Of a stretch of 60,295 nt of DNA, positions 261-44,138 are shown in pieces. How positions within the stretch are numbered: the stretch's first letter is position 1; each line of letters opens with the position of its first letter. The DNA comes from Microcaldota archaeon (GTDB lineage Archaea > Micrarchaeota > Micrarchaeia > Micrarchaeales > Micrarchaeaceae), in NCBI GenBank assembly GCA_021828155.1, contig JAKAST010000002.1:1-60295 (forward strand). Direction: 5' to 3'. The translations under genes and the position numbers were made by a program. The notes below the pieces were generated by a model. That model saw only the letters and a list, made by a program, of their open reading frames with translations. It was not told the DNA's origin and made no database searches.

Positions 261-328
261 CTTTCCTGACTATAGAGAAGCGTGCTGTGAGGTAAAAATA
301 CCAGGGTGCAGATCACTTGTCCAAAAGC

Positions 329-3300: not shown

Positions 3301-6300
3301 ATATTCATATACATCACCCATCGCAGGCGCATCGGGCACCCAGTATGCATACTCGTCGCTAAGCGGCTGCGGCCAGAGCACACAGAGCGGCAGCTTCAGC
3401 GCGACCGCTGCCTGCACGGTCACTGCGTCGTATAACACTCAGTACTACCTGACCATGGCCGTAAGTCCATCGGGCGGCGGAACTGTATCTCCATCAAGTG
3501 GCTGGTACAACTCTGGCACAAATGTAGGCATAAGCGAGAGTCCTGCAACGAACTACGTATTCAATGACTGGACCTGCAGCGGCACGGGCTGCTACTCAGG
3601 CACCAGCACCAGCGCAACAATAACAATGAACAACCCGATCACAGAGACTGCGAACTACTATGCACCGGTTACTGTGACGTTCACCTCGTCGTCGATGTCA
3701 AGCACCTCTGGCACGGTGGTAACGGTCGACGGCGCGAATGTGGTCTATTCCAGCTTCCCGTACTCGATAACAGTTCCATACAGCTCATCAGTTGCATACT
3801 CCTACGCTTCGCCTATCGCTGGTTCCTCAGGCACCCAGTACGTCTATTCGTCGCTCAGCGGCTGCAGTCAATCAGCGCAGTCCAACAGCTTCAGCGCGAC
3901 ATCGACCTGCACGGTAACTGCATCTTACACGACTCAGTACTATCTTACGATGGCCGTAAGCCCATCAGGCGGCGGCACTGTATCGCCAGGCAGCGGCTGG
4001 TACAACTCCGGCTCAGCGGTCACGATAAGTGAATCCCCGGCAACGAACTACGTCTTCGATGACTGGACCTGCAGCGGCACGGGCTGCTACTCCGGCACAG
4101 CAACAAGCGCAACCGCAACCATGAGCGCGCCTATCACAGAGACCGCGAACTACTATGCACCGGTTACTGTGACGTTCGCCTCATCGTCGATGAGCAGCAC
4201 CTCAGGAACTGTGGTGACTGTAGACGGCACTAACTTGGCATATTCCAGCCTCCCGTACTCAATACTTGTGCCCTATGGCAGCACAGTCACATATTCATAC
4301 GCCTCGCCTATAGGCGGTTCATCGGGCACCCAGTATGCATATTCGTCGCTCAGCGGCTGCAGTCAATCAGCGCAGTCAGGCAGCTTCAGCGCTACCTCTA
4401 CCTGCACAGTCACTGCGTCGTATAACACTCAGTACTATCTTACGATGGCCGTAAGTCCATCGGGCGGCGGCACTGTGTCGCCTAGCAACGGCTGGTACAA
4501 CTCAGGCTCGGCAGTGACGATAAGTGAAACTCCTGCAACGAACTACGTATTCGATGACTGGACAGGCACGGGCACCGGCAGCTACTCAGGCACCACGGCC
4601 AGCACTAGCATAACCATGAGCGCGCCTATCACAGAGACCGCGAACTACTACTCCCTAGTCACCATTACGTTCACCTCATCGTCGATGAGCGGCACCTCAG
4701 GCACTGTAGTCACAGTAGACGGCACCAACGTCGCCTATTCAAGCTTCCCGTACTCGATAACAGTTCCATACAGCAGCACAGTCACATATTCATATACATC
4801 ACCCATCGCAGGCGCATCGGGCACCCAGTATGCATACTCGTCGCTAAGCGGCTGCGGCCAGAGCGCGCAGTCCAATAGCTTCAGCGCGACATCAACTTGC
4901 ACAGTCACTGCCTCATACACGACTCAGTACTACCTAACGATGTCTGCGAGTCGCACACCTTCTGGTGGCGGCTCTATATCTCCATCAAGCGGCTGGTACA
5001 ATGCAGGCTCTAATGTTGGTATAAGCGCGAGCCAGGCAAATAACTACACATATACCGGCTGGAGCGGCACAGGCTCTGGCTCTTACTCTGGACTTGCGTC
5101 AAGCGCTACTGTAACAATGAGCGCACCCATAACAGAGACAGCAGGCTACATACAGAACTGGAATATAGGTCATATACCTTATCCTCTCCCGAACTCCATT
5201 CCTCCTGTACAGGGAACCGCATACGACCCAGCCAACGGCTACATGTATGCTCTGTTCGGTAACTCTTATATATATGCAATGAGCGGTACTTCGGTTGTTG
5301 CAAATATAACTTTACCATTTGCCGTTTCCTCTGTTATTTCAAGTAACTTCCCTCCATTTGTTTACGATGCAGCAGACGGCTACATGTATGGGGTATATAG
5401 CAGCGGTACGGCTACCGGTAATGGAGTATTCGCAATCAGTGGAACCAGCTTCATTGGCGTAGTCCCTGGCACAAGTTACACTAGTCCATCGTACCCCGGC
5501 ACTGGCAACACCTTTGATGCTGTTTATGATTCTTCCGACGGTTACTTATATGTGGGTAATACGAACGGCACAGTTTCTGTAATAAGTGGCATGAGCATCG
5601 TTGCGATAGTTGGCAGCGGGCTAGGCAGCGGCGCCTATCCTGCCGCTGCGGTTTACGATTCTGCAGACGGCTATGTATACATAGCATACAGCGATTATAT
5701 CTATGTCATAAGCGGCACTACTATTGTAGATACAATAACAATGCCTAATGGATACGACCCTATAACGATGGTCTTCGACCCATACAATGGATACATATAC
5801 GCCGCCAACATAAATTACGGCTACATATACGCAATTCATGGCACAACCATTGTAGGCAACTCAGGAATATCTACTGCCAGCAATCCGGAATTTCTTGGCG
5901 TAGATCCGGCTAACGGTTATCTATATGTTACCTATAATACAGGTAACAACTATCCATACGTGACTGTTATAAGTGGCAATAGCACGCTTGCCTCCTCAAT
6001 CTTTGTAGGTTATGTACCATACCAAACCATATATGATCCAAACAACGGTTATGTATTTGTTGTAACTAGTAGTGATGTCGTCACAGTCATGCAAGGCACG
6101 TCTATTATTGCTAACTTTACGGGATTTACTACCGGTGCTAGCTACGGCGGCTCAGGACCTGCATACGATCCAGCAGCCGACTCATTATATATGCCCGTCG
6201 ACTATAGTAATTACGGTATAACGATCCTAGAGGGTGGTGCTAGCACTTTTAGTACAACAAACGTAAACCTGATGCTCTACCCCTCATCTGCGACATACGA

Positions 6301-7378: not shown

Positions 7379-7637
7379 ATGCACATTCTAGAATACATCC
7401 ACAATTTCATGTATGCTATGTCAATATCTTAAAGAATTCTCGGCTTCGTCGGTAGTTGACGCATAATTAGGGCAATAGTTTTTCTGTCTTGTTCTCGTTA
7501 TAATCGTTAACGGCAGCGCCATCTATACACTCACCTAGTTCCTGGCGATCAGGCTTTTCAGCGCCGGCGATTTTATCTTGATGAGGTTCTTTCGGTAAGG
7601 AATTCGACTGCCGTGCCTACCGCATTATTGAGCTCGC

Positions 7638-7880
7638 TCTCAAGCTCCCTCAGCCACAGTCGTCACGGTCGACGGCACCAACATTGTCTATTCCAGCCTC
7701 CCGTACTCGATACTGGTGCCATACGGCAGCACAGTCACATACTCATACGCCTCGCCGATAGGAAGTTCCTCAGGCACCCAGTACGTCTATTCGTCGCTCA
7801 GCGGCTGCAGTCAATCAGCGCAGTCCAACAGCTTCAGCGCGACATCGACATGCACGATCGATGCCGAGTATACGCCGTGA
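7638..7880 (+). pseudogene. stranded, frameshifted copy of one surface-protein repeat, ending in its own stop
   Basis: From 7659 the frame reads VVTVDGTNIVYSSLPYS, continues through the SGCSQSAQ segment and ends CTIDAEYTP with TGA at 7878-7880. It closely matches the surface-protein modules at DNA level. Just upstream the match continues as SSLSSSLS in another frame, so there is a one-base frameshift, and no start is available. The 260 bases between the intact gene and this fragment hold no recognisable gene. It could be the former 3' end of the surface gene, displaced when the propeller part was acquired, or a duplicated end. No function is expected. Confidence 0.75.
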
Positions 7881-8415: not shown

Positions 8416-8802
8416 TCAGCGGCGCAGCTCCATGGCTGCTGCATCATTGCTTGCTGAAAAGAGTGCCGCAGAGCGCCTGCTTGCTTCAAGGTACGCCTCT
8501 ATCGCCTTCTCGGCCCGCAAAGACACTGCATCGAGCGCCTCTGCGAGCGCAGCGTTGCTAGGATCTGCAGAGAGCGCAGACATGGAAGAGTCCAGTCCCT
8601 CACGTATCTCCTTGTAGAGCATGAACCGGTTCTCGTGGCTGTGCGAACAGTTGTGCAGCGGCGAGCGGTCGAGTTCGAATTCGAGCCGGTCTATCATACC
8701 ATCTAGTGTTCTGCCTTGCTCTGCAGCCCTGTGCAGCCTGGTTTCGGTATCGGTCGCGTCAGCAGCGCGCTGCGCCCTAACTACAAGCTTGGAGTCAGAC
8801 AT
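8416..8802 (-). CDS. hypothetical helical protein
   Basis: 128 residues, charged and Ala-rich, predicted mostly alpha-helical with heptad-like stretches; a HNCSHSHEN segment near residue 52 has His/Cys residues that could bind a metal, but nothing confirms this. A CTTTAAAT box at 8831-8838 sits 29-36 bases before the ATG, which fits a nearly leaderless transcript. No family is recognised. It converges on the membrane-protein gene across the hairpin at 8335. Confidence 0.65.
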   Translation of the reverse strand: MSDSKLVVRAQRAADATDTETRLHRAAEQGRTLDGMIDRLEFELDRSPLHNCSHSHENRFMLYKEIREGLDSSMSALSADPSNAALAEALDAVSLRAEKAIEAYLEASRRSAALFSASNDAAAMELRR

Positions 8803-8910
8803 TGTATCGCTGCATTTGCGAACCCGACTAATTTAAAGACGAAGTGGCATTCGTCAAGAAGCGAATTATGGAGCAATAAGATATTCAGCGGTGTTTGCCC
8901 TGCTGCCTGG

Positions 8911-28541: not shown

Positions 28542-28577
28542 CCATTACTACATACTAGGTAAAAATACTTCTTGAAG

Positions 28578-29627
28578 ATGGTAATTTTGTATGACAACTT
28601 CACTAAATATTTAGAAAAGGTTACAGAGCGCAAAGACCTAACCTTTGATGAAGCCGTTGACTCTTTTGATTTAATTACTGCTGGTAATATCAATGATATT
28701 CGAATAGGGGCGTTCCTCAGCGCGCTCAAAACAAAAGGGGAGACCTCAACAGAGGTCGCTGCTTTTGTAACAGCTCTTAGGCGCAAGGCGAATAATATCA
28801 ATCCACATGTTAGAGGAAGACTTACAGACACTGCAGGTACGGGCCACGCCTTATTAAAAACAATTAATATATCAACCATAAGCGCTATTGTTGCGGCAGG
28901 ATCAGGTGTGCCTATAGTCAAACATGGAAACAGAGGAATAACTAGTGTCTGTGGAAGCGCAGATTTGATAGAAGCGCTAGGAGCAAATATTAGCCTAACT
29001 CCAGATCAAGTTAATCAAGTTATTGAAAAAATAGGGTTCGGATTCCTATTTGCTCCTATTTTCCATCCGGCATTTAAGTATGCACTTTTGCCAAGAAAGG
29101 AACTAAGAATAGCAACTGTTTTTAACATTTTAGGGCCTTTGACTAACCCTGCTGGAGCAAAGGCGCAGATAATTGGTGTTTATTCAGAAGATCTTGTTGG
29201 TTTGGTTGCTGATTCCCTTCGTAAACTGGGAACTGAGAAGGCACTTGTAGTATACGGAGAGGGCGGGCTTGATGAGCTGTCAACAATCGGCAAGACAACT
29301 GTTGCCGAAATAAATGGGGATAAAATCGAGAACTATCAGATTGAACCTAAAGATTTTGGTTTAGAAGTAGCTAGGCCAGAATCGATAGAGGGCAAAAACC
29401 CTGCAGAAAGCGCAGTAATAGCAAGAAATATTCTATCGGGCAAAGAGGGGCCAGAATTGGACGTAGTTCTACTAAATGCCGCCGGTGCCATATATGTGGC
29501 AGGAGCCTCTAGTTCAATAGCTGATGGAATAAAAATTGCATCTGAAAGTATTACAAGTGGGAAAGCTTTAGATAAACTAGAGAAATTCATAGAAATGACA
29601 AACGAATTCACCTACAAGAAGGATTAG
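28578..29627 (+). CDS. trpD: anthranilate phosphoribosyltransferase family protein (TrpD)
   Basis: 349 residues, normal TrpD length. Seen: ITAGNINDIRIGAFLSALKT (N-terminal helical domain), KHGNRGITSVCGSADLIEAL, FLFAPIFHPAFK and the long block VFNILGPLTNPAGAKAQI, all typical. The PRPP-binding GTGGD is GTGHA here, a noteworthy change. It joins anthranilate to PRPP in tryptophan synthesis, but no other trp gene is in the window. The gene is visibly AT-rich (many AAA, ATA, TTT codons) compared with the GC-rich genes to its left, which suggests transfer and marks the start of the accessory island. Confidence 0.9.
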   Translation: MVILYDNFTKYLEKVTERKDLTFDEAVDSFDLITAGNINDIRIGAFLSALKTKGETSTEVAAFVTALRRKANNINPHVRGRLTDTAGTGHALLKTINISTISAIVAAGSGVPIVKHGNRGITSVCGSADLIEALGANISLTPDQVNQVIEKIGFGFLFAPIFHPAFKYALLPRKELRIATVFNILGPLTNPAGAKAQIIGVYSEDLVGLVADSLRKLGTEKALVVYGEGGLDELSTIGKTTVAEINGDKIENYQIEPKDFGLEVARPESIEGKNPAESAVIARNILSGKEGPELDVVLLNAAGAIYVAGASSSIADGIKIASESITSGKALDKLEKFIEMTNEFTYKKD

Positions 29628-29738
29628 AAGTGACAGACTTAATAACCCAACAATATGTGGTAGGTTTGGGCAAGATTACATACTCTGGGAGAAGCGACTA
29701 AGGTAAGGTATGTGCTTATGTCTGCATCAACACAAATA

Positions 29739-29760
29739 TTTTTAGAATTTCCATGAAAGC
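29739..29760 (+). repeat. 28-bp island repeat, copy 1 (partial)
   Basis: TTTTTAGAATTTCCATGAAAGC matches the first two thirds of the island repeat. It lies before the promoter of the 362-residue gene. Confidence 0.5.
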
Positions 29761-29773
29761 CCCAAAGCGCAGC

Positions 29774-29784
29774 TATAAATATCT
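29774..29784 (+). promoter_or_regulatory. extended TATA box (TATAAATATCT)
   Basis: Recurring box, 41 bases before the ATG at 29826. Confidence 0.7.
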
Positions 29785-29825
29785 AAAACAGCAGAGCACA
29801 TCTTGCATAGGCAGAGTGATATTTA

Positions 29826-30914
29826 ATGTGGATTGGTGAAAATCCAGAAGACGTTGCGGCACTTTCAAAAGTTGTTCCTTTAGTGAGCGCCAATCTAGAT
29901 AGCTATGGCATAAATACAGATAACCTAAGGGTTATGGTATCCAACGTTTCTGTGGCTCCTCCTGACATAAAGGAATGGTTGTATAGGTTTTTTGAAATAG
30001 AAGGAGGGATAGCGGTAGATGTGGCAGCAATGCGAGAGAAGCTCATAAAGACAGGAAAAAATGATGTCGATGAGCGGAATCTGCTATACGCCATCGCAAA
30101 CGAAATCGCCGGAATTATGGCGTACAGATTGGCTGACGGTTATCGTGGCTTTTATTATGATGATGATTTTAAATACAGTGCAGCCGGATGGTTTCAGTAT
30201 ACACTTTTTCCAGAAATCGATGCTTCGAAGTGGGCGCGGCCAGACGAGAAAATTAAGAAATTGGAATCGGTTTCTGATAACTTGTATGACCAAATGCGTG
30301 ATGGCTTCGAGGCTTCTCTAAAAACCGCAGCTCTTAGAGCCTCTTTGCCATACGATGAGTTTATGCACGAGGTGGTAAGTACGGCTAGGCTCAAAGGCCA
30401 GACAAGCGCCCTCCGGTACACTTCCATGCTTGAGGAAGAGCTGCAGACTGAAGAACAGCGCAATCCAAACGGCACCGATTTCATTCTGGGCCCAAATGAC
30501 TTCATCGACCGAACAGCCATAAGGCTGCGAGAAGCGGATGAACGCATAACGGACGAATACCCATTACGCATGCGCAATGCGCTTGTAAATGCGCTCAAAA
30601 CTGCGGGTTCTGACCCTGTAGCGTTCTGGAGGGCTATGGCTGAGCAGGCAGCAAATAACATAAACGAAACTACGGAAGGATGTGCATATATTTCCAACGC
30701 GCTGATCGCAGTAGTGCTAGACTCGTACAATAACATTGGAGAAGGGCTGCACATGATGCTTAAAAACCCCAAACTGACCCAGCACAAAGCAGTCACTGCA
30801 CCAAAAGCCCTTGAGGCTATAAAAACGCTTGCACGCTCGTTGGAAACATTGCCGGTTACGTACCACGTAGATCTACCAATCTCCAAAGAGAAGACCAAGT
30901 CCACGCTGAAATAA
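29826..30914 (+). CDS. hypothetical protein, helical
   Basis: 362 residues, mostly helical and soluble. A segment LLYAIANEIAGIMAYRLADG followed by an aromatic stretch (GFYYDDDFKYSAAGWFQYTLF) loosely recalls the YELGR segment of the 773-residue protein at 41817, which may be a degenerate zincin; the similarity is weak. The second half has several Glu/Arg-rich helices (LREADERITDEYPLRMRNAL). No family is recognised. It uses the extended box. No ribosome site is obvious before the ATG. Confidence 0.7.
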   Translation: MWIGENPEDVAALSKVVPLVSANLDSYGINTDNLRVMVSNVSVAPPDIKEWLYRFFEIEGGIAVDVAAMREKLIKTGKNDVDERNLLYAIANEIAGIMAYRLADGYRGFYYDDDFKYSAAGWFQYTLFPEIDASKWARPDEKIKKLESVSDNLYDQMRDGFEASLKTAALRASLPYDEFMHEVVSTARLKGQTSALRYTSMLEEELQTEEQRNPNGTDFILGPNDFIDRTAIRLREADERITDEYPLRMRNALVNALKTAGSDPVAFWRAMAEQAANNINETTEGCAYISNALIAVVLDSYNNIGEGLHMMLKNPKLTQHKAVTAPKALEAIKTLARSLETLPVTYHVDLPISKEKTKSTLK

Positions 30915-30925
30915 AACTATGTACA

Positions 30926-30957
30926 ATTTCAGAATTTCTATTATAATCAGAATAGTG
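30926..30957 (+). repeat. 28-bp island repeat, copy 2
   Basis: CAGAATTTCTATTATAATCA then GAATAGTG: a diverged copy, just after the 362-residue gene and before the transposase remnant. Confidence 0.45.
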
Positions 30958-30981
30958 TTTGCAGTGCAGGTTTGAGATACT

Positions 30982-31104
30982 ATGACGGAAGCTGCATTTT
31001 CGAGGTTCAAGGGTATGTTCGGCGAATCCGTATTTTCAAAGAATCTAAGCATGATGAGAAAAGAGTTATTGACGAGAACACACATTTACAATCTGACTTT
31101 GTAG
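30982..31104 (+). pseudogene. C-terminal remnant of an IS5/IS4-type DDE transposase
   Basis: A 40-codon frame reads MTEAAFSRFKGMFGESVF, then SKNLSMMRKELLTRTHIYNL. The pattern (E)xxFSxFKRxFGExVxSK ... KELxxKxxIYN is typical of the end of IS5-like transposases, including the conserved Glu region and the C-terminal helix. The rest of the enzyme is gone and no terminal repeats are evident. It marks past insertion-sequence activity in the AT-rich island. Confidence 0.65.
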
Positions 31105-31183
31105 GATAAGTAACAGTCTGAAAAGACAGATGTTAGTCTGCCATTTTTCAATATTTATTGGACAGGGCAAAGCAAAACGAATG

Positions 31184-31194
31184 CATAAATATCT
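31184..31194 (+). promoter_or_regulatory. extended TATA box (CATAAATATCT)
   Basis: Recurring box, 33 bases before the TTG start at 31228. Confidence 0.65.
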
Positions 31195-31227
31195 AAACAA
31201 AAAAGGTTTTATGATACGGGTGATTGA

Positions 31228-31740
31228 TTGGCATCGCGTGAAATTGATAGACTTCCCAAAGGATTGAGCACCTTTAGAGAAAGAGAGATGCACTCAAGAT
31301 TATTGCGCCAAGCTATATCTGAAAAAAGCGTTCTTGATCTGATCGAGAATGACCCACAAGTGAAGTCAAAAGAACGGATAGTAAATAAGCTAACAACATT
31401 TGTAGAAAATATGTTTGCTGGGAAGGCTATAATAGACAAGGTATTGGCAGAAGGTAAGCCAATTAGTCTGCCCCCAAATTCTAGTGAGGCGCTGCGCGCA
31501 TGGGAAATTGCACACGATTACGTAATAGGAATTCCGCTAAAAGAAAGTCTGCTTCGCTCTGAGGAGCTACACGCTTCTCGCATAGGACGCTTTATCGAGA
31601 AAATGAGGGTAGAGGTTGAATATCTGAAGAACGTGGAACTTGGAAAAGTTGAGCCTGACAAGGTAAAGACAGTTAGGGCTTTCTATAAGGAAAGATTTGA
31701 GGTGGCTCGCCGCAGGCTTCCAGTGCCTAAGCTTGATTAA
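31228..31740 (+). CDS. hypothetical helical protein
   Basis: 170 residues, start TTG with GGGTGATTGA directly upstream. It is charged and helical throughout (TFREREMHSRLLRQAISEKS; IGRFIEKMRVEVEYLKNVEL), without membrane segments or catalytic motifs, and ends in a basic tail RRRLPVPKLD. It looks like a small scaffold or regulator; no family is recognised. It lies between the transposase remnant and the truncated phosphatase, in the AT-rich island. Confidence 0.65.
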   Translation: MASREIDRLPKGLSTFREREMHSRLLRQAISEKSVLDLIENDPQVKSKERIVNKLTTFVENMFAGKAIIDKVLAEGKPISLPPNSSEALRAWEIAHDYVIGIPLKESLLRSEELHASRIGRFIEKMRVEVEYLKNVELGKVEPDKVKTVRAFYKERFEVARRRLPVPKLD

Positions 31741-31843
31741 TTAAACATTAACCCGCATTTCCATCCAATAAACAGGCGTATAGCATAACTCAGGCACAAA
31801 TAAAGTAATGAAATACTTGAACGTTAATTTTGATTCAATTATT

Positions 31844-31869
31844 TTAGAATCTTTATTAGAGTATTAGTG
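31844..31869 (+). repeat. 28-bp island repeat, copy 3
   Basis: TTAGAATCTTTATTAGAGTA plus flank: a diverged copy, 9 bases before the truncated phosphatase gene. Confidence 0.5.
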
Positions 31870-31878
31870 AGTGGTTTG

Positions 31879-31932
31879 ATGAAAGTTCTTTTCATATGCA
31901 AAGCAAATGTCGGCAGGAGCCAGACGGCCTAA
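31879..31932 (+). pseudogene. truncated low-molecular-weight phosphatase gene (17 codons)
   Basis: MKVLFICKANVGRSQTA then TAA. It is almost identical to the start of the intact copies at 32670 and 34156 (the C-X5-R active-site loop, CKANVGR) but stops directly after it and runs into unrelated sequence. It is a broken copy, left by recombination or insertion of the following transglutaminase unit. A 17-residue peptide would have no enzyme activity. Confidence 0.8.
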
Positions 31933-31988
31933 GCTACATTATTATAAATGCATATTATAAAAAAGTATTGATGGGATAGAGTGGGCTT

Positions 31989-32582
31989 ATGTTAGATAAT
32001 TTGACATTCCTCGAAGAAGGAAGATTTACGCACATAAATAAAGCCATAAAGGAAAAGGCCCTTGAGCTTACATCTGGCAAAGGCGATCAAGAAAAGGTTT
32101 CCGCAATATCAAAGTTTCTCCTATCGAACTTAGAGGTAAGATCCTCTGATTTAAACATTTTCAGAAAGCGCACGGCCTCAAAAATTTTTGAGTCTGGATT
32201 TTCTACAGGTTGCTCTGACACTGCTCTTATTTTCATAGTTCTGAGCAGGGCTTCGGGCATACCAACAAAATATGTCGAAACATTGTTGGTAGATTGGCTC
32301 TCCGGTAAAATTCCGAAAATACCAGTAGAGGGGCACGTTTTTGTAGATGTAAAGCTCAGTGGCAGGCGGTTCGCATATGACCCGCTGCAAGGCTTTACGC
32401 AAAATAATCAATACATTCTTATGGGCAGGTCATACTCCGAAGTTGGCAAAGGGCTTGATTTTTCAGAGGTTTACCTTAAAACTGAAAGCGGCTATAGTAG
32501 TGAACCTATTAGTTTGCAGAGCATAGAACCCTTAAAGGAGTTAAGGAAGAATAAATCGGTGCTGTCTGGAAGCGTACCTTAA
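31989..32582 (+). CDS. transglutaminase-like (papain-fold) protein
   Basis: 197 residues. STGCSDTALIFIVLSRASGI has the catalytic Cys at the head of the core helix, VEGHVFVDVKLSGRRFAYDP supplies the His (GHVFV) and Asp (YDP) of the transglutaminase triad, in the correct order and spacing. A helical N-terminal 60 residues precede the core. No signal peptide is visible, so it is probably cytoplasmic. Such domains act as peptidases, amidases or crosslinkers. It follows the truncated phosphatase and shares the AT-rich composition of the island. Confidence 0.85.
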   Translation: MLDNLTFLEEGRFTHINKAIKEKALELTSGKGDQEKVSAISKFLLSNLEVRSSDLNIFRKRTASKIFESGFSTGCSDTALIFIVLSRASGIPTKYVETLLVDWLSGKIPKIPVEGHVFVDVKLSGRRFAYDPLQGFTQNNQYILMGRSYSEVGKGLDFSEVYLKTESGYSSEPISLQSIEPLKELRKNKSVLSGSVP

Positions 32583-32623
32583 CGCAGATCTATTTAAAGA
32601 ATTCGAGCTATCGTAAAATATGC

Positions 32624-32650
32624 AAATTTTCTATTAAAGTATTGGAATAA
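32624..32650 (+). repeat. 28-bp island repeat, copy 4
   Basis: AAATTTTCTATTAAAGTATT then GGAATAA, 20 bases before the ATG of the second phosphatase copy. Confidence 0.6.
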
Positions 32651-32669
32651 CTTTTAACATGTCGATTTC

Positions 32670-33098
32670 ATGAAAGTGCTTTTTGTATGCAAAGCGAATG
32701 TTGGCAGGAGCCAGATGGCCGAGGCCATATTTAACAGCTTGGCAGGAGGAAAGGCTACAGCCAACAGCGCAGGAGTCTATCCAGGCAGTTATGAGGGGAA
32801 AAGGATAAGCGAAACAGGCCCTAATGTAACTGCGTGCATGAAAGACATGGGATTGGACGTATCCGATAAACTGTCGAAGAAACTTACAGAAGGCATGGCC
32901 AGTAACGCCGACATAGTGGTATCTATGGTAAGCAAAGACACGCTGCCTTCTTATCTGCAAAGCTCAGCTAAACTTATACTATGGGGCATAAAAGACCCTA
33001 GACTTATGGATTACGCAGGGCATGTTGAAATAAGGAACCAGATATACAAGAAGGTCAAAGAACTTGTGAAAGAGCTGAATTTGAATCAACGCAAATAG
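32670..33098 (+). CDS. low-molecular-weight protein tyrosine phosphatase / ArsC-like
   Basis: 142 residues. MKVLFVCKANVGRSQMAEA carries the C-X5-R(S) phosphate loop (Cys7, Arg13) typical of low-molecular-weight phosphatases and thioredoxin-type arsenate reductases; ADIVVSMVSKDTLP and ILWGIKDP (with the Asp of the DP motif) complete the fold. It probably removes phosphate from tyrosine in proteins, or reduces arsenate; no ars genes are adjacent, favouring a phosphatase. One of three copies in 2.7 kb, and flanked by copies of the island repeat on both sides. Confidence 0.9.
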   Translation: MKVLFVCKANVGRSQMAEAIFNSLAGGKATANSAGVYPGSYEGKRISETGPNVTACMKDMGLDVSDKLSKKLTEGMASNADIVVSMVSKDTLPSYLQSSAKLILWGIKDPRLMDYAGHVEIRNQIYKKVKELVKELNLNQRK

Positions 33099-33129
33099 TT
33101 TTAGAATTTCTATGAAAGTGTTGGAATAC
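33099..33129 (+). repeat. 28-bp island repeat, copy 5
   Basis: TTTTAGAATTTCTATGAAAG then TGTTGGAATAC, starting right after the stop codon of the phosphatase. It has no phosphatase gene downstream; a 36-codon ORF starts at its internal ATG (33112-33222) and looks noncoding. Confidence 0.65.
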
Positions 33130-33293
33130 CTCTGCAGAATCAAGTTTGTGATAGACAAGAGTGCGGACAAAGGGGCAAGCAAGCGGCTCGTCAACGGATC
33201 TATAATATCCGTCGCCGATTGAGTAATGTATAGCTAACTGTATACAAACGTAATACTTATAAATCTTAATGCCCATAATACTGTTGCGATTAT

Positions 33294-33518
33294 ATGACTG
33301 AAAGCGAGGTAATCACCATAAGGGCCCCTAAGGGAACAAAAGCGACGATGCGCAGGATACACATTAACTGGAGTAAGGATCTTAGAGAGCATATAGAGGA
33401 CAGGGTGCGCGCCTCTAGGCTGCTTGACCTGCTGAAAGACCTTCAAAAGCGTTCAAAGAGGATACAGGTGACCGGAGATAGCACAGAGATAATCAGACGC
33501 TATAGGGACATAAGGTAA
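33294..33518 (+). CDS. vapB: VapB-type antitoxin
   Basis: 74 residues, basic. The N-terminal EVITIRAPKGTKATMRRIHI is a beta-strand with DNA-binding character; the rest is a helical tail that would wrap the toxin. It lies 4 bases before the PIN toxin, the usual antitoxin-first order. A TATA box (CTTATAAAT near 33257) is about 37 bases upstream. It neutralises the toxin and probably represses the operon. Assignment rests on size, charge and the linked toxin. Confidence 0.8.
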   Translation: MTESEVITIRAPKGTKATMRRIHINWSKDLREHIEDRVRASRLLDLLKDLQKRSKRIQVTGDSTEIIRRYRDIR

Positions 33519-33522
33519 TTCA

Positions 33523-33942
33523 ATGATGACGTTGGATGCCAGTGCGCTGGTGAAGCTGGTCATAGATGAAGACCGCTCAGACGAGGTAATACAGGTCGTG
33601 TATAAGGCGCTGTCTAAAAACGAGCCGATAATCGCGCCCAGCATTGCGTTGCATGAATCGATGAACGTATTATGGGTCTATTCAGTAGGCAGGCGGAAAC
33701 TGAGCAAAGATAAGACGCTGACAGCTTTTGATAGGCTATTGCAGATATGGTCGCTGATGAAACATGTCGATTCGGAAGACCTAAACAGGATGGCAATGGC
33801 GATAGCACTCGACAGCAAGCTTACCGTTTATGACTCCCTTTACGTAGCAACCAGCGTGCTATACAAAAGTCCGCTTTTGACGTTTGATGAAGACATGCAC
33901 TCGAAGGCTGATCAAATGGGCGTTGCCATGGTTAAGGTTTAA
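33523..33942 (+). CDS. vapC: VapC-type PIN-domain ribonuclease toxin
   Basis: 139 residues, normal PIN length. Acidic residues of the metal site are visible: TLDASALVKL (Asp5), IALHESMNVL (Glu), TVYDSLYVATS (Asp) and LLTFDEDMHSKA (Asp). VapC enzymes cut tRNA or rRNA when the antitoxin is degraded. A second ATG follows directly at 33526. Together with vapB this is a complete type II toxin-antitoxin module in the AT-rich island, a frequent passenger of mobile DNA. Confidence 0.9.
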   Translation: MMTLDASALVKLVIDEDRSDEVIQVVYKALSKNEPIIAPSIALHESMNVLWVYSVGRRKLSKDKTLTAFDRLLQIWSLMKHVDSEDLNRMAMAIALDSKLTVYDSLYVATSVLYKSPLLTFDEDMHSKADQMGVAMVKV

Positions 33943-33993
33943 CTTCCTGCCCGGGAAGTTAATAACTAGTTAAAATTCTTATGGAGTGCTTAT

Positions 33994-34110
33994 ATGGCGA
34001 ATAAAAACTTCATGCGGCTTGCAATCGATAAAGCTAGAGAGAACAAAACGCCTTTCGCTTCTTGTATTGCCGGTGATGGTAAGGCAATATTTAAAATAAT
34101 AACAAGTTAG
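33994..34110 (+). pseudogene. N-terminal fragment of a nucleoside/guanine deaminase-like gene
   Basis: 38 codons: MANKNFMRLAIDKARENK, then PFASCIAGDGKAIFK, close to the opening of the cytidine/guanine deaminase family (FMxxAIxxARxxxxPFGAxIVxDGKII). The frame leaves the family after GKAIFK, and the zinc-binding HAE and PCxxC motifs are missing. Its TAG is formed by the first bases of island repeat copy 6, so the gene was cut exactly where the repeat-phosphatase unit begins. Confidence 0.65.
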
Positions 34111-34134
34111 AATTTCTATTAAAGTGTTGGAATA
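34107..34134 (+). repeat. 28-bp island repeat, copy 6
   Basis: TTAGAATTTCTATTAAAGTG then TTGGAATA, 21 bases before the ATG of the third phosphatase copy; CTATTAAAG within it could serve as TATA box. Confidence 0.65.
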
Positions 34135-34155
34135 GTATTTTGGCGTATTGGTTTG

Positions 34156-34599: not shown

Positions 34600-35293
34600 C
34601 TGTGTGTCTGCCATATTTGCTGCAGATTTAGCCAACTCTACATTAGCAGGGGCTTAAAGGCGCATACCAAAAAGAAATTAGTATATCCAAAATATTATTG
34701 GGTTGTTGTGCCCCTTCAACCTCTTATTGTTAGTTAGTTTCATAAAATTAAAACTAAAGCAAACTTGCAGGTAAATTAATGCAGTTCCATATTAATGCAA
34801 TAAAATTTCAATTTGCTTAAAGCAATTATTTCGAATTTATGGAAAACAGGCCTTCCTGGCCAAGCAAGCGGTATTGAGCGCCAAGTCCGCATGTTTTTCA
34901 TGGCTTTCCGAGAGAGGGTGCTTTTTGGCTCGTAATTATGAAACGCAAGCAACGAAAAACCATAATCTTGAAATGTGGTTTCGGCATTGCGAAAAACCAC
35001 ATTAAACGGTCTTCCGAGGGAAAAATTTGCACACATTTGCGTTCTGGCGCACGATCTTGTTTGCAGCTGGATAATTAGATGGGCTCACGTCTCGCGCCAC
35101 GCATGACAAAAGAAAGAGAAATCTGATTTTGCTAAAAGAAAATCAGAAATACTAATTTATTCTTAGTAATGTTGCGCGTCCATAGACTGATGAAGTCCAA
35201 GTCAATCTCTGATTTAGGAAGCCCATTGGGCTACTACGTACGGTAGAGGACATCCCTGCAGAGCTTGCTTTCATCGCGCAGTCATCAGTCCTT
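34600..35293. other. AT-rich gap without a supported gene; several hairpins
   Basis: Nearly 700 bases. Visible: direct ATTAATGCA repeats near 34777 and 34793; a perfect 10-bp stem, AATGTGGTTT (34972-34981) with AAACCACATT (34994-35003); and the hairpin pair described at 35122-35168. A minus-strand ORF of 86 codons (34776-35036) lacks ribosome site and family resemblance. On the minus strand an orphan extended box at 35294-35305 could drive a short transcript with a 40-codon ORF ending near 35145. A structured RNA is possible. Confidence 0.4.
35122..35168 (-). terminator. tandem hairpins, possible terminator
   Basis: TACTAA/TTAGTA (35150-35155 and 35163-35168) followed on the minus strand by a T-rich stretch, and TCTGATTTT/AAAATCAGA (35122-35130 and 35139-35147) as a perfect 9-bp stem. 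A related AATACTAA/TTAGTATT hairpin follows the 244-residue gene at 36123. Confidence 0.5.
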
Positions 35294-35305
35294 CCAGATA
35301 TTTAT
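35294..35305 (-). promoter_or_regulatory. orphan extended TATA box (ATAAATATCTGG)
   Basis: Recurring box on the minus strand; its TAA is the stop codon of the 159-residue gene. Downstream, GAAGGACTGATG resembles the leader before the 42-codon ORF at 36056, but no clear gene follows. Confidence 0.55.
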
Positions 35306-35781
35306 CCATCTAGAGGAGGAAGAACGTTGGAGTTTCCTGTTTTACGCTCCAACCTCTCTGCCTCCTGTAAACGTAGAAGCGCGGTGTATATATTCCAACC
35401 TTCGCCTGTTAGGTAGACCATATCAACCTCATGCTCACCCGGGCCCATCACTTCCTGTCTCTTAGCTAGTCTTATAAATAAAAGTTCGTCGACTATGTGC
35501 CTGTCCAGCATGTACTCCTCCTTTCCCTGCTCACTACCAATCTGGTTTATAATGTATAAAAGAAGTGGACTTTTCTTCCGCATCAAAAGCACCAACTCCT
35601 CCATCTGCTTCTTCTCTTCAATCAGGGCTTTGGCTTTTATCACGTTAATCTTTTTGTTGGTTTCTTCCATACCTGCTCGAAGAAAATTTGATTCTGTATA
35701 CAGGCGCGTTATCGAATCTGCGCTAAAAACCTGATTTGCTCCTCGCTCTATCGTCTTTTTTAACTTTGTCGGTGCTGGCAT
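35302..35781 (-). CDS. hypothetical protein, coiled-coil then winged-helix-like
   Basis: 159 residues. The first 70 are basic and helical with a heptad pattern (NKKINVIKAKALIEEKKQME), the second half (LLLYIINQIGSEQGKEEYML ... YLTGEGWNIYTALLRL) resembles a small winged-helix domain. GGGGGATTG precedes the ATG and the extended box lies 27 bases upstream. It might be a transcription factor, by inference only. The end overlaps another promoter box. Confidence 0.65.
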   Translation of the reverse strand: MPAPTKLKKTIERGANQVFSADSITRLYTESNFLRAGMEETNKKINVIKAKALIEEKKQMEELVLLMRKKSPLLLYIINQIGSEQGKEEYMLDRHIVDELLFIRLAKRQEVMGPGEHEVDMVYLTGEGWNIYTALLRLQEAERLERKTGNSNVLPPLDG

Positions 35782-35807
35782 TCAATCCCCCAAACGCCTT
35801 CGCTTAT

Positions 35808-35820
35808 CCAAATATTTATA
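35808..35820 (-). promoter_or_regulatory. extended TATA box (TATAAATATTTGG)
   Basis: Minus-strand copy of the recurring box, 27 bases before the ATG at 35781. Confidence 0.6.
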
Positions 35821-35879
35821 GTTATCTATATACATCAGGCCCATCATAAGTTATGTGATTAATGCGTTGGGTAACTTCC

Positions 35880-36059
35880 CCCGAAGCGAAATAACCATTG
35901 TTTTGGGCCCAATCTTTTTATAATGCGTCAATTCTTTTGACCATTGGTGCCGGCAGGTGCCGGCTTCTCCTTCTTGAAGAGGAACTTGTGGCTTATGCCA
36001 CTAGCAAGCTGGAATATGCTTCCTATGAATAATGGAAACGGCAGCGCGTAGTCCATCAG
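35880..36059. repeat. 180-bp direct repeat, left copy (MFS gene 3' end)
   Basis: Matches 37004-37183 over 180 bases with no gaps and about seven mismatches by eye. It contains the last 42 codons of the MFS transporter and about 50 bases after its stop. The copies are 1124 bp apart and flank the 244-residue winged-helix membrane protein gene. Confidence 0.9.
35928..36056 (-). CDS. 42-codon detached C-terminus of the MFS transporter, with its own promoter
   Basis: MDYALPFPLFIGSIFQLASG followed by a Lys-rich tail: the exact C-terminus of the MFS protein at 37052, with three amino-acid changes (Tyr to His, two Ser to Pro). The frame is intact and begins at what is an internal Met of the transporter. 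A recurring extended box ends 9 bases before the ATG. It could yield a one-helix membrane peptide or be a fragment that has not yet decayed. Confidence 0.45.
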   Translation of the reverse strand: MDYALPFPLFIGSIFQLASGISHKFLFKKEKPAPAGTNGQKN

Positions 36060-36064
36060 TTCGT

Positions 36065-36078
36065 CCAGATATTTATGC
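36065..36078 (-). promoter_or_regulatory. extended TATA box (GCATAAATATCTGG)
   Basis: Minus-strand copy of the recurring box, 9 bases before the 42-codon ORF at 36056 and just outside the 180-bp repeat. Confidence 0.6.
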
Positions 36079-36122
36079 CTTTAGGGAAGAGAGAAGTCAT
36101 ATTTTACTCAAAAGAAACTAGA

Positions 36123-36139
36123 AATACTAACTTAGTATT
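36123..36139 (-). terminator. palindromic terminator after the 244-residue gene
   Basis: AATACTAA-C-TTAGTATT is a perfect palindrome a few bases after the stop at 36144, followed on the minus strand by TTTCTAGTTTCTTTT. It likely ends that transcript. Confidence 0.6.
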
Positions 36140-36143
36140 AGTT

Positions 36144-36878
36144 TTATAATCTGTCTGCGTGGACGGTCTGCAGCCCGGCAGCATCCTGCACGCCTTCAGC
36201 TGCCTTCTCGTACCGCTTCGCATAGTGCATATGCAATGCTGCGAGTCCGCCTACAAACCCGCCTATTAGCATGGTAAATGGCAGCGCGACATAGAGTGGG
36301 ATATTCGGCGCCGTGAGGTGCTCATAGAAAAGTTGTATCGTGATTACCAGACTGCCGCCAACCGATAAAATAGATGCAGTAAGCTTTTCACTCCTCGCAT
36401 ACCTGCCAAAGATCCTCGTCTTGACATTGGCCGGTATGCCATTTGCCATAGCAATGTTACTAGTAGGAATATAGTGCTTGAAGGCGTCATATACGCTCTG
36501 CCCCGCATCGCTCAGGTGATAATAGCTCTGCCTGCCGATCTTAAGCTCAGTTAGAAGGCCATTGGCCTTGAGTTCCTCTATTTTCTCGTTTGTAAAGTTA
36601 GTTATTAGCGTCTTGTACTGGTAGCCTCCGGTCGTCCATACATCATTGATCCTGGCCAGTTCTATAAGGGCGCCGAGATCCGACCTCTGCATGTGCTTGA
36701 CATACCTCTTGCTTGCCCTCAGCTCTATGTCGACTCCCTTTCTCAGTAGCAACGCATTGCCATCATTTCTGATGGCCTCTGTGCCATCATGGATATGATG
36801 CTGCGCCTTTGCCATGGCGCGCCTGAGGGTCTTTCCAGCATCAGAGGTTGTAGCATTAGCATCCAGTGTTGTCTCCAA
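36144..36878 (-). CDS. winged-helix protein with two C-terminal membrane helices
   Basis: 244 residues, TTG start with GGTGG 5 bases upstream. Residues 60-150 look like a winged helix-turn-helix (LIELARINDVWTTGGYQYKT; EELKANGLLTELKIGRQSYY; HLSDAGQSVYDAF). Two hydrophobic helices follow (SILSVGGSLVITIQLFYEHL about 180-200; PLYVALPFTMLIGGFVGGLA about 205-225). It may be a membrane-tethered transcription regulator, a type known in archaea. It lies exactly between the 180-bp direct repeats and so may be a cassette inserted next to the MFS gene. Confidence 0.75.
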   Translation of the reverse strand: METTLDANATTSDAGKTLRRAMAKAQHHIHDGTEAIRNDGNALLLRKGVDIELRASKRYVKHMQRSDLGALIELARINDVWTTGGYQYKTLITNFTNEKIEELKANGLLTELKIGRQSYYHLSDAGQSVYDAFKHYIPTSNIAMANGIPANVKTRIFGRYARSEKLTASILSVGGSLVITIQLFYEHLTAPNIPLYVALPFTMLIGGFVGGLAALHMHYAKRYEKAAEGVQDAAGLQTVHADRL

Positions 36879-36907
36879 GTTTCCACCATTAATGTTTTAG
36901 TGTCTCG

Positions 36908-36918
36908 AGATATTTATA
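36908..36918 (-). promoter_or_regulatory. extended TATA box (TATAAATATCT)
   Basis: Minus-strand copy of the recurring box, 30 bases before the TTG start at 36878. Confidence 0.65.
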
Positions 36919-37003
36919 CACATGTTTAACGGTGGCTTCGCACTTAAAAGGTGATTTGCATTTTTAGTCCCGGTTTTGCATCTTTGTGCAACCATTGGCT
37001 GCA

Positions 37004-37183
37004 CCCAAAGCGAAATAACCATTGTTTTGGACCCAATCTTTTTATACTGCGTCAATTCTTTTGACCATTGGTGCCGGCAGATGCCGACTTCTCCTTCTTG
37101 AAGAGGAACTTGTAGCTTATGCCACTGGCAAGCTGGAATATGCTTCCTATGAATAATGGAAACGGCAGCGCGTAGTCCATCAG
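37004..37183. repeat. 180-bp direct repeat, right copy (intact MFS gene 3' end)
   Basis: The original location: the end of the MFS gene plus about 50 bases after its stop. See the left copy at 35880. Confidence 0.9.
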
Positions 37184-38272
37184 GTAGCCGCTTGCGCCGG
37201 AGCTGAGCTGCGCAGTCCTCGAAGCAATGCCCTGCACACTCGTCGCAGTGCCGTAGTCCTCGGAATTTATGCCACGCACATTGACTGTCGTCCTGCTCGG
37301 GCTCCCAAACCCTGCAATAGTGGCCCTTGCAATATAAAAGAGGCCAGCGATTACGATGGCTGGCGACACCGCCATCGCAAAAAGCAGTATGCCGCTCAGT
37401 ATCCTCGTATAGGAGGCTATGTTGAGTGCGCTGAATCTGTGCGCAATTCTCGATGAGGCGTATGAGCCGAGGGCTGTGGCAATATACACCAAGCTGAATA
37501 TGATGCCTATCTCAAGAGGATCGGCATGGTATGATAACTTGAACCAGAGCGGCAGCAGGGGCATTACCAGTCCCATGCTGACACCTCCTAGCGAATTTGC
37601 AACGATGACACGCAGTGAGTACCTCATGCTGCTCATCTTCATCACTTTTGTCGTCTTCGCCGGTCTTTTGGCCTCATTTAGCAGCATCAGGAATATCACA
37701 GATATGCCGAGCAGCGCTGCTGCCAGGATGAAAAGGTACCTGTATGCGTCAACTAGGCTTACGTAGTTGCTCAGCAGAGAAACGCTGCTGAATATGAGGC
37801 TGCCGCCTATCGCGGCCGTGGAAGCCGTCATTGTGAGAAGCGAGTATCTTTTCACCCTGTCGCTGTCCTCCTTGTAGTTGTTCGCTATGAATGCGTTGGT
37901 GCCGGGCGAGAATGCTCCGCGCATGCCTCCCGCACCACTGCTGAGGCCCGCTATTACCATACCTATTATTATGTACGTGGCTGCAGATGATGCGGCTATT
38001 ACCGCAGCGCCAGCAAACGCAACGAGCTCGGCGATGATGAGCTCCGTCTTGTAGCCCTTCCTGTCACCTATCATTCCGAACAGCATTGTCAGGAAGATCA
38101 TGACCAGCATCGTGGCTGCGGCCACAAGTCCTATGTCTATCACGCTTATATGAAGCGCTACCAGGTAAAGCGAGAACGCGAGGCTCATGTATATGAGGGC
38201 AACGCTCCTGAACGCCCTGGAATAGAGCAGATACTTAAACTTACTGTCAACGCCTTCCATGCCAGTGCCCAT
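37052..38272 (-). CDS. major facilitator superfamily transporter
   Basis: 406 residues with about 12 hydrophobic helices. ATG 38272 is chosen because TTATAAATTG lies 18-27 bases upstream, so the message is nearly leaderless, and because the earlier part of the frame is polar and lies upstream of that box. The loop between helices 2 and 3 reads GMIGDRKGYKTE, the MFS signature (GxxxDRxGxxx). It probably exports or imports a small solute; substrate unknown. Its last 42 codons are duplicated at 35928. Confidence 0.9.
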   Translation of the reverse strand: MGTGMEGVDSKFKYLLYSRAFRSVALIYMSLAFSLYLVALHISVIDIGLVAAATMLVMIFLTMLFGMIGDRKGYKTELIIAELVAFAGAAVIAASSAATYIIIGMVIAGLSSGAGGMRGAFSPGTNAFIANNYKEDSDRVKRYSLLTMTASTAAIGGSLIFSSVSLLSNYVSLVDAYRYLFILAAALLGISVIFLMLLNEAKRPAKTTKVMKMSSMRYSLRVIVANSLGGVSMGLVMPLLPLWFKLSYHADPLEIGIIFSLVYIATALGSYASSRIAHRFSALNIASYTRILSGILLFAMAVSPAIVIAGLFYIARATIAGFGSPSRTTVNVRGINSEDYGTATSVQGIASRTAQLSSGASGYLMDYALPFPLFIGSIFQLASGISYKFLFKKEKSASAGTNGQKN

Positions 38273-38426
38273 GGCAGAATTTGATTGGCCGCAATTTATA
38301 ACTGTTGTTGTTTCGGTCTTTCTAATGCAACTGACAAATGCAGTGCCGCGCAAATTTGCGTCACACTGCCGTTAACGGAACATCACAAAAAGGGCAGTGC
38401 TTACAGGATTGCGGAATGCAATTAAT

Positions 38427-41816: not shown

Positions 41817-44138
41817 ATGGGAATGCCGTACACAACCGATAAGGACGAGAGCATCAGGCGCCTTGAGCGGCGCTTCTGCTCCGAGGCCGCGGCCAAGGGC
41901 CATTACGTTTCTGCGTTCCGCTGGGCAATGCGCGCGGGCGACACAGAGCTGGCGGAGCGCTACATAGGCATTGAATGCGACAAATTCTCCGATGCTGGAT
42001 TCCCGGATGCAGCCCGCAGGTTCAAGGGGCAGGCGATGGAGCTTGCATCGACCCGCGATGATATAGGCGTGCGTGATTTGTATAAGGTCGAGTTCAGCAT
42101 ACTGGACGAGCTGTTTAAGGGACTTACGGCCAAGGCTATGCTTCCCGGCGCCGCCATTGACATGGACGAGTTTTACGAGCCATCCATGTTGGGCGATGTG
42201 CATAGGATAAAGGACTCGCTCGATGCTTTGGCAGCCATGACGGCATTCGAGGAAGGACTCTTTACCAGAGTCTGGGAGGGCGGGGCTGAGGAGGCCAGCA
42301 TCGATGGCTACAAACTTACCATAGACAGACTCGTGACAAAGAAGCCGGGCTACGAGCCCGTATACAACAGCATATACGACACGCAGTTCGAGATAGAATA
42401 CGAGGAGCTCGAGCAGCATGAATTCGCACTTCAAGGCTATGTGTATCTGCGCTTCGTCGAGGGTAGCGCACTTCGCTGCATGACAGTTGTCGAGGCCGGC
42501 AGGCTGGTAAGGCTCATGGCTGATTCCGGTATTTTGGGCCTGGGCAGCGCAGATGGGCAGGCTTTGCTGGCAAAGCAGATAGGGATAGCCGCGGAGTACG
42601 CAGCCGCAGTCGACTTTCAGTCCATCGGCCAGCTGGCCGACAACGACGTTGTAACCGGGCTTGGGGTACATGAAGCTCATCCGGAGATGTCACATATGGA
42701 TGAGCTGAACGCGCTGAAGGCCGGCTATGCCGGAACAGCCTACACGAATGCGACCTCCGAAGCGCTTTACGATGTGATTCGCGGCATGAGCAGGCGTGTT
42801 AAGACGAATACTGCGCGCATCAACGCCTGCGTTTCAATGATATCAGATTTCGTATCAGTTACAAGGGATGGCACTGCGGCATTGGATTCGGGAGCCGTAC
42901 GTTCGTTCGTGCGCAGGCTCCGCACAATTAGCGAAACATACAGGTCAGGAGCTACGCAACTCACTCTTGATGGCGGGATCGTTAACCAAATATCAATGGA
43001 AACAGAACCCGACGCCTACACAAAAGCCGTCAGTGCAGCGTACGTCAGGTTCGCAACGGAAGCTATAATTACAATGCAGGGATTGGGCAGAAAGCGCTTC
43101 AAGTTGCCTTTGCTGCTGCACCCAGGCAGCGACAATACACTAGGCAAACTTAATCATGAGGAGCGGGGCTGGAACTTTTACATTTCCGGCGGTGTACTTG
43201 ACTGGGACCAGCCTGAGACACTGGTTTCTGATACCAGCAAGTCAGTAATCTATTTGCTAGACACGCAGACAAACTCAGGACGTGTCGCCAACGCGGCATC
43301 TATCGAGAAACTCGTAGCCTATGAACTGGGCCGCCATTTCGTTAGCCAGCTGGCCTCAAATGAATCCTGGGCAGAGCTTTACTTGCGCCTTGACGGTAGA
43401 CCTGCCACGATGCTGGTAGAGGGGCTGTCTGACATATTGGGATGTTACCTCACCCTTCGCGCTGCTCATGCCAAAAGCAAGTTCAGGGACGTTGCTCGCG
43501 TAGTCGCAGGCCTCGTAAGGGAGCGCTCAGAAGCCATGGCGGAGCGGGCCTCCAGGATACTGATGTCTGACATGCTTAACACTCTAAGCAATCCTGACGT
43601 TCCGGCCCAAAAGATACTCGAGATCTGCAAGACACTCGCAGATGAGGCCGAGAGATACACAAGCACATACCTGTATGGCACCCTGCGGCTCGCGACTGGG
43701 CTTTATGACTACTCCAGAACCCTCATATCGGCTTTTGTGGTTGATTCGTGCTGGCGTGAGGTATGGAATGGCCATGAAGATTCATACATCAATCCGCGTA
43801 TAAATGAATTCGAGGCCAGGATCAGGGCGCTTGATGCAGGCGCAGACGGGCAAGGCAATAACTACATAGAGCAATACAAAAGCTCGTACAAGCACGAGGC
43901 CGCAGACATAGAGCTCATCCGGGAACTCAAGGATAAGATAGCCGCTGACCTGAACAGCATAGGGTCTGGCATTGTGGAAGAGATGCGCAAATCAATCAAA
44001 AGCCTCGACGGCCACATACGTGCGCTGTACGCCAACGAGACAGATAGGGCACGCAGGCTCGAGGAATTGTTCAGCTTGTATTACAAGGCAAACTCCAACG
44101 AGCTCCCCGATTACCTTAGTGAGGCAAACAAAATCTGA
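41817..44138 (+). CDS. large hypothetical protein with a degenerate HExxH-like segment
   Basis: 773 residues, mostly helical, soluble. Around residue 505 the sequence EKLVAYELGRHFVSQLA looks like a zincin helix in which HELGH has become YELGR; about 32 residues later MLVEGLSDILGCYL resembles the third-ligand helix of such enzymes (EGxxD). If so, this is an inactive peptidase-like protein; the reading is inference. The N-terminal 80 residues (LERRFCSEAAAKGHYVSAFR) recall helical repeat proteins. ATG 41817 or 41823 is possible. It uses the extended box and is followed by a hairpin. Confidence 0.75.
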   Translation: MGMPYTTDKDESIRRLERRFCSEAAAKGHYVSAFRWAMRAGDTELAERYIGIECDKFSDAGFPDAARRFKGQAMELASTRDDIGVRDLYKVEFSILDELFKGLTAKAMLPGAAIDMDEFYEPSMLGDVHRIKDSLDALAAMTAFEEGLFTRVWEGGAEEASIDGYKLTIDRLVTKKPGYEPVYNSIYDTQFEIEYEELEQHEFALQGYVYLRFVEGSALRCMTVVEAGRLVRLMADSGILGLGSADGQALLAKQIGIAAEYAAAVDFQSIGQLADNDVVTGLGVHEAHPEMSHMDELNALKAGYAGTAYTNATSEALYDVIRGMSRRVKTNTARINACVSMISDFVSVTRDGTAALDSGAVRSFVRRLRTISETYRSGATQLTLDGGIVNQISMETEPDAYTKAVSAAYVRFATEAIITMQGLGRKRFKLPLLLHPGSDNTLGKLNHEERGWNFYISGGVLDWDQPETLVSDTSKSVIYLLDTQTNSGRVANAASIEKLVAYELGRHFVSQLASNESWAELYLRLDGRPATMLVEGLSDILGCYLTLRAAHAKSKFRDVARVVAGLVRERSEAMAERASRILMSDMLNTLSNPDVPAQKILEICKTLADEAERYTSTYLYGTLRLATGLYDYSRTLISAFVVDSCWREVWNGHEDSYINPRINEFEARIRALDAGADGQGNNYIEQYKSSYKHEAADIELIRELKDKIAADLNSIGSGIVEEMRKSIKSLDGHIRALYANETDRARRLEELFSLYYKANSNELPDYLSEANKI

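Follow-up and report, generated by a model that had tools for sequence, protein, structure and literature searches.

A repeated MFS gene end beside a conserved non-coding element and its putative gene modules in an archaeon of the Micrarchaeota

The window considered here is the whole stretch of DNA that was analysed, 60,295 nucleotides of one contig from a Microcaldota archaeon whose assembly (590 kb, 20 contigs, 85% complete) is termed G000 below. From left to right, the locus of interest comprises a conserved non-coding element (34738–35125, plus strand; ~430 bp at 34738–35167 when the dyad at its edge is included), the dyad D3 that forms the right edge of the element (35126–35167, plus strand), an orphan gene of 159 amino acids (35302–35781, minus strand), a copy of the 3′ tail of a transporter gene (35880–36059, minus strand), a second copy of the element-edge dyad (D3′; 36101–36143, plus strand), a gene for a winged-helix-like protein (WH; 36144–36878, minus strand) whose stop codon is touched by D3′, and an intact MFS transporter gene (37052–38353, minus strand, with the stop at 37052 and a likely start at 38274; PF07690, E 3.9e-28). 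Elsewhere in the window, a 2353-amino-acid open frame (317–7378) carries tandem repeats of ~495 bp (1475–5142), and a related piece is found again at 7634–7872.

The 3′ end of the MFS gene is present twice. Positions 35880–36059 and 37004–37183 form an ungapped match of exactly 180 bp with seven mismatches (96.1% identity, BLAST E 1.7e-79), in direct orientation and with a start-to-start distance of 1124 bp, precisely as the original prediction had estimated by eye; a looser alignment of the pair gives 185 bp with nine mismatches, and there are no further copies in the assembly. The right copy (minus strand) consists of the final 42 codons of the intact MFS gene and ~50 bp 3′ of its stop. The left copy contains the same 42 codons (MDYALPFPLFIGSIFQLASGISHKFLFKKEKPAPAGTNGQKN) and the same ~50 bp downstream, while the rest of the MFS gene is absent. 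It terminates after CATCAG at 36059, so that in the sense of the gene it starts with CTG|ATG, and it is faced by a TATA-type promoter box on the minus strand at 36068–36077 (AGATATTTAT on the plus strand); both the end point and the box had been predicted correctly. Four codons differ between the copies, three of them with a change of residue, and at the single site that can be polarised using G001, a genome of the same genus, the right copy has the ancestral state and the left copy the derived one (Y to H). The left copy is therefore best read as a derived, detached piece of the MFS gene. The ATG of this tail (36056) lies ~12–21 nt from its box, compared with 30–40 nt at WH and the orphan gene; given this closer spacing, a functional 42-amino-acid gene starting from the left tail is not favoured. 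Some of the seven mismatches fall at 35949–35964, where they give the left copy both a perfect GCCGGC palindrome and the direct repeat GCCGGCACC; the pattern resembles a templated change. As an alternative to recent insertion, the original prediction had named an old duplication, fixed with the same arrangement in all relatives; the repeat was found in no relative seen, and it is therefore young. A duplication of this kind is, by itself, ordinary.

Between the two copies, WH encodes a protein of 244 amino acids with C-terminal hydrophobic helices. It gives weak Pfam matches (PF14277 and PF07848) below the cut-off, only a weak CARF-type match for its domain with PADLOC, a structure model too poor for use (pLDDT 40.7) and no match in viral contigs. 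Its TATA-type box (36909–36918, minus strand) is of the same kind as that at 36068–36077, is conserved in G001, and is one of eight such boxes in the window. For the MFS gene, reading by eye gives a TATA-like sequence of another kind near 38297, in keeping with the prediction that the two genes differ in promoter type. A box resembling that at 36068–36077 is also found at 35297–35306; the pair was considered as proof of a tandem unit and rejected, as a like box with like flanks in G001 indicates a promoter type. There is no excess of sigma-70-type promoters at these points, and no G+C-rich terminator was found there; the absence of both is expected in an archaeon.

In G001, the corresponding locus holds an ortholog of WH (44% identical as protein), which directly adjoins the same element. 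The ortholog is flanked on the left by the same non-coding region and on the right by a homologue of the 773-amino-acid gene that lies at 41817–44138 in the window, and it sits between D3 and a further D3-like dyad. The MFS ortholog of G001 (77%) is on another contig and has no repeat; by eye, the end of that gene (L014, about 8800–8880) adjoins a tRNA-like sequence on the opposite strand. Relative to G001, G000 thus has two additions: the MFS gene to the right of WH and, to its left as far as the element, ~0.9 kb of extra sequence containing the orphan gene and the left MFS tail. Since G001 has WH at the same locus and MFS elsewhere, WH is the shared anchor of the locus and an old resident, so that a young repeat surrounds an old gene. 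The proposal that WH is a recently inserted, self-contained unit consequently divides into two parts: the gene has the look of a self-contained unit, since it possesses a promoter box of its own and, in G001, a dyad on either side, but recent insertion is not supported, given the ortholog at the same locus without repeats.

The extra segment spans ~35168–36143 and is bounded by D3 and D3′. Its orphan gene has a match in none of the seven relatives searched (eight genomes including this one), and its AlphaFold model is poor (pLDDT 51.5). The possibility that WH and the orphan gene are duplicates of one another was rejected (BLASTP E 0.055; nucleotide alignment no better than shuffles). An open frame of 40 amino acids (35152–35274, minus strand) lies behind the box at 35297–35306 and ends inside D3; it may be a small gene belonging to that segment.

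The element that adjoins this segment was identified using blastn and a sequence model, R1, which matches its positions 34738–34943. It was found by blastn in 14 of 60 relatives, and a sequence-only model built from 12 of these 14 had matches in 88 out of 164 genomes from the order, including 40 of the 51 that are at least 90% complete. The element is mostly single-copy, with two or three matches in a few genomes. Two matches are seen in G019 (C1:375–578 and C6:85377–85582), in G041 (C34 and C21) and in G009 (both on C21); some of these double matches lie near contig ends, and they may be real second copies or effects of strain or assembly. A ~430-bp element that is kept across an order of very small genomes, usually once in each, probably does something for the chromosome. 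It was rejected as a structured RNA gene, having no Rfam match and no covarying fold, and neither the element nor the dyad site was found in viral, phage or plasmid collections. A classical archaeal origin was likewise rejected: strict ORB patterns are absent near the element, and in four single-contig genomes cdc6 is not adjacent but 311–371 kb away. In the neighbourhoods examined, nearly all genes beside the element point at it. Skew curves have extremes near the element in G011 (T-A minimum at the element) and in G027 (G-C minimum within ~20 kb and T-A maximum within ~7 kb), but these are of opposite signs and gene orientation contributes to the curves; in G010, the strand-corrected G-C minimum lies 25 kb from the element. 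As genes converge at the element and it is far from cdc6, a role at the replication terminus fits better than one at an origin, and we favour, without claiming it, a terminus-like position. No published description of the element or its locus was found in a literature search that reached few subscription journals.

The two dyads D3 and D3′ (~42 bp) are about 80% alike over 53–54 bp, and the core AGAAATACTAA occurs in the whole assembly only at these two positions. On the right-hand side of the element, the D3 profile finds more copies in G000, G001, G010, G007, G048, G022 and G005. To the left of the element, sites are of a mirror type (TTTTAGAATTTCTATGAAAGTGTTGGAATA), termed L-type, and when both types are read in the direction of the preceding gene they have a common core resembling TTAGNATTTCTA. 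In the window, plus-strand L-type dyads overlap the stop of the LMW phosphatase gene 32670–33098 (33085–33137) and follow a PIN gene (34094–34143); a further site lies after the gene 28572–29627 (29727–29759, HMM E 3.9e-06), a weak one begins 8 nt past the stop of the gene 29826–30914 (30922–30955), and a partial one follows a transglutaminase-like gene (32628–32651, HMM E 0.0033). The seeds of the site HMMs were picked from these same loci, so that the E-values of the seeds themselves (5.6e-05 for D3, 7.8e-14 for 33085–33137 and 2.6e-09 for 34094–34143) are circular, and the usable evidence consists of counts outside the seeds and the genome-wide absence of matches elsewhere. In the closed genome G010, both HMMs match only near the element, and in the closed genomes G027 and G011 the D3 HMM finds the site of the element alone. 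Fifteen of 36 sites lie no more than 30 nt from the stop of a gene that is read towards the site, compared with 3.4% of random positions. The palindrome that had been assigned to WH as a private terminator (36101–36143) is real, but is not private, being one of a set of dyads specific to this locus. The left-hand plus-strand genes (28572–34143), several of which have an L-type dyad at or near the 3′ end, lie in a stretch whose G+C content (~42%) is below that found elsewhere in the window (up to 58%).

Several blocks of homology between genomes end at these sites. When G000 is compared with G001, the alignment of the element stops 4 bp short of the end of D3 in either genome; beyond this point, the WH stop is reached after 63 bp in G001 versus 977 bp in G000, and the shared WH block has its upstream edge ~12 bp inside the further dyad of G001. 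G007 and G048, two members of a single genus, show 88% identity across the element until 4 bp short of the dyad end; different genes follow, and after these a second dyad is shared at 86%. Just past this second dyad, G007 has a gene of 1985 amino acids (L047, 9063–15020) that is absent there in G048 and has no PADLOC match. The phosphatase gene and its site occur together at −2494 (G000), −5977 (G010) and −977 (G022) relative to D3, with different neighbours in each case, and homology of this module ends 2–10 bp from the edge of the site; the gene 31228–31740 behaves in the same way between G000 and G010. In total, 10 of 33 ends of homology blocks lie within 15 bp of a site edge against a null expectation of 4.5%, a count in which the ten are not independent, several sharing the same two edges. 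The genes near the element (PIN, phosphatase, HAD, deaminase, D12 methylase, transglutaminase and mostly unknowns) are typical of accessory modules. We read the locus as a two-sided array of site-bounded gene modules around the element.

In such an array, the left repeat would be a detached MFS tail within a young, dyad-bounded segment of ~0.9 kb (D3/D3′) that was inserted between the element and the older WH, an explanation that we consider to have an even chance of being correct. The locus would gain, lose and reorder modules of this kind; the MFS tail would already have become fused, at the shared bases CTGATG, to a promoter region of foreign origin, and the segment with the orphan gene and the tail would then have entered as one site-bounded module next to the element. 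Several observations stand against this explanation. The dyads D3 and D3′ are far less alike than the MFS tails, so that the copying of the tail was not what created them; between the orphan gene and the tail there is no dyad, and in G007 one is also lacking at the far end of a 6-kb insert. Sites placed at gene ends could be terminators, and gene ends are in any case frequent end points of homology blocks. Furthermore, no recombinase is common to the genomes examined. Tyrosine recombinases (PF00589) are present in G010 and G027 but absent from four of ten genomes, all of which bear the element (the closed G011, G007, G048 and G000, the last only 85% complete); serine recombinases (PF00239) are absent from eight of nine genomes, with a match only in G011; and Cas1 is absent from seven of nine, G007 having the gene and G010 a partial, stop-bearing match. 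Each of the three was rejected as the common enzyme, being missing from several genomes.

Ordinary duplication with deletions is a serious rival, and one that we regard as quite possible. Here, a tandem duplication of WH and MFS, or a template switch, would have left a partial second MFS gene that was then mostly deleted, and the dyads would be transcription terminators of the lineage, uninvolved in the event. The left copy has the orientation of its source, lies 1124 bp from it and lacks the 5′ part of the gene, all of which speaks for such a rearrangement; the junction CTGATG, also found downstream of the similar box at 35297–35306, fits a microhomology join, and the dyads are T-rich in the gene sense and placed at gene ends. 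Against this account, no second WH gene or remnant lies to the left of the tail, the alignment of the two segments being no better than shuffles, and the sites cluster at this one locus in the closed genomes G010, G011 and G027, when terminators would be expected to be spread over the chromosome.

It is improbable that the repeat is an assembly artefact, with the MFS 3′ ends of two strains combined in a single metagenome contig. The genomes of the relatives were assembled from metagenomes, as this incomplete one probably was too, and a divergence of 4% is strain-like; against this, the sequences flanking the left copy are distinct on either side and belong to one continuous contig, and the gene in the extra segment is both intact and unique. 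Least credible of all is the original idea of WH as a recently inserted mobile unit able to excise between its flanking repeats, since, although homologous recombination between near-identical 180-bp direct repeats is possible in principle, WH occupies the same locus in G001 without them, the repeat consists of MFS coding sequence and far exceeds usual target duplications in length, and no transposase or integrase lies between the copies, which leaves a transposon with target duplication without its hallmarks.

More tentatively, and as a generalisation that we hold to be rather unlikely as a whole, the conserved non-coding element, present once per chromosome in this order of Micrarchaeota, could be a landing platform for gene modules on both sides, in mirrored arrangement, served by a recombination system that works without any of the three recombinase families tested. 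The modules around the element may show how reduced archaeal genomes still acquire genes; the locus, unlike the repeat itself, is not ordinary, and is worth proper study.

Comparison with known systems shows partial likeness to several. Insertion of the Cas1 type, as in CRISPR and casposons, has its enzyme only in G007 and, as a partial match, in G010. Polar fork traps (Tus-Ter, RTP-Ter) resemble the locus in having related sites in opposite orientation that flank a point of gene convergence; they differ in that the sites here lie within ~6 kb and are tied to gene ends, with no candidate terminator protein. Dimer resolution by archaeal Xer/dif (PMC2958812) shares the presence of a dyad, usually single, that is set in conserved AT-rich sequence away from the origin-linked gene, but the element is far longer than the 28-bp dif and a recombinase was not detected in a closed genome. 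The dif/pdif modules of Acinetobacter (PMC6449649, PMC12907356) likewise consist of separate gene modules with short dyads at their borders, the dyads being related to a site that has a chromosomal function. In contrast to these, the modules described here are chromosomal rather than plasmid-borne, and no Xer-type recombinase was detected in G000, G007, G048 or G011; the dyads are similar in size to the dif plan of two ~11-bp arms and a ~6-bp centre. A further parallel in organisation is with integron cassettes, including those of archaeal integrons (PMC9668308). Unlike integrons, the locus has mirrored arrays to the left and right of its platform, with sites of ~30–45 bp and at least some modules with promoter boxes of their own, and the tyrosine recombinase that would act as integrase was not detected in several genomes (PF00589 is absent from G000, G007, G048 and the closed G011). 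Some outer bases of the dyads partially resemble the R and L boxes of attC, by eye only. Like integrons, the locus combines a fixed platform beside an array with small genes, most of them accessory, that each have a short recombination-like dyad after the gene end, and the same module is found in different positions and different company, as illustrated by the phosphatase module at its three positions.
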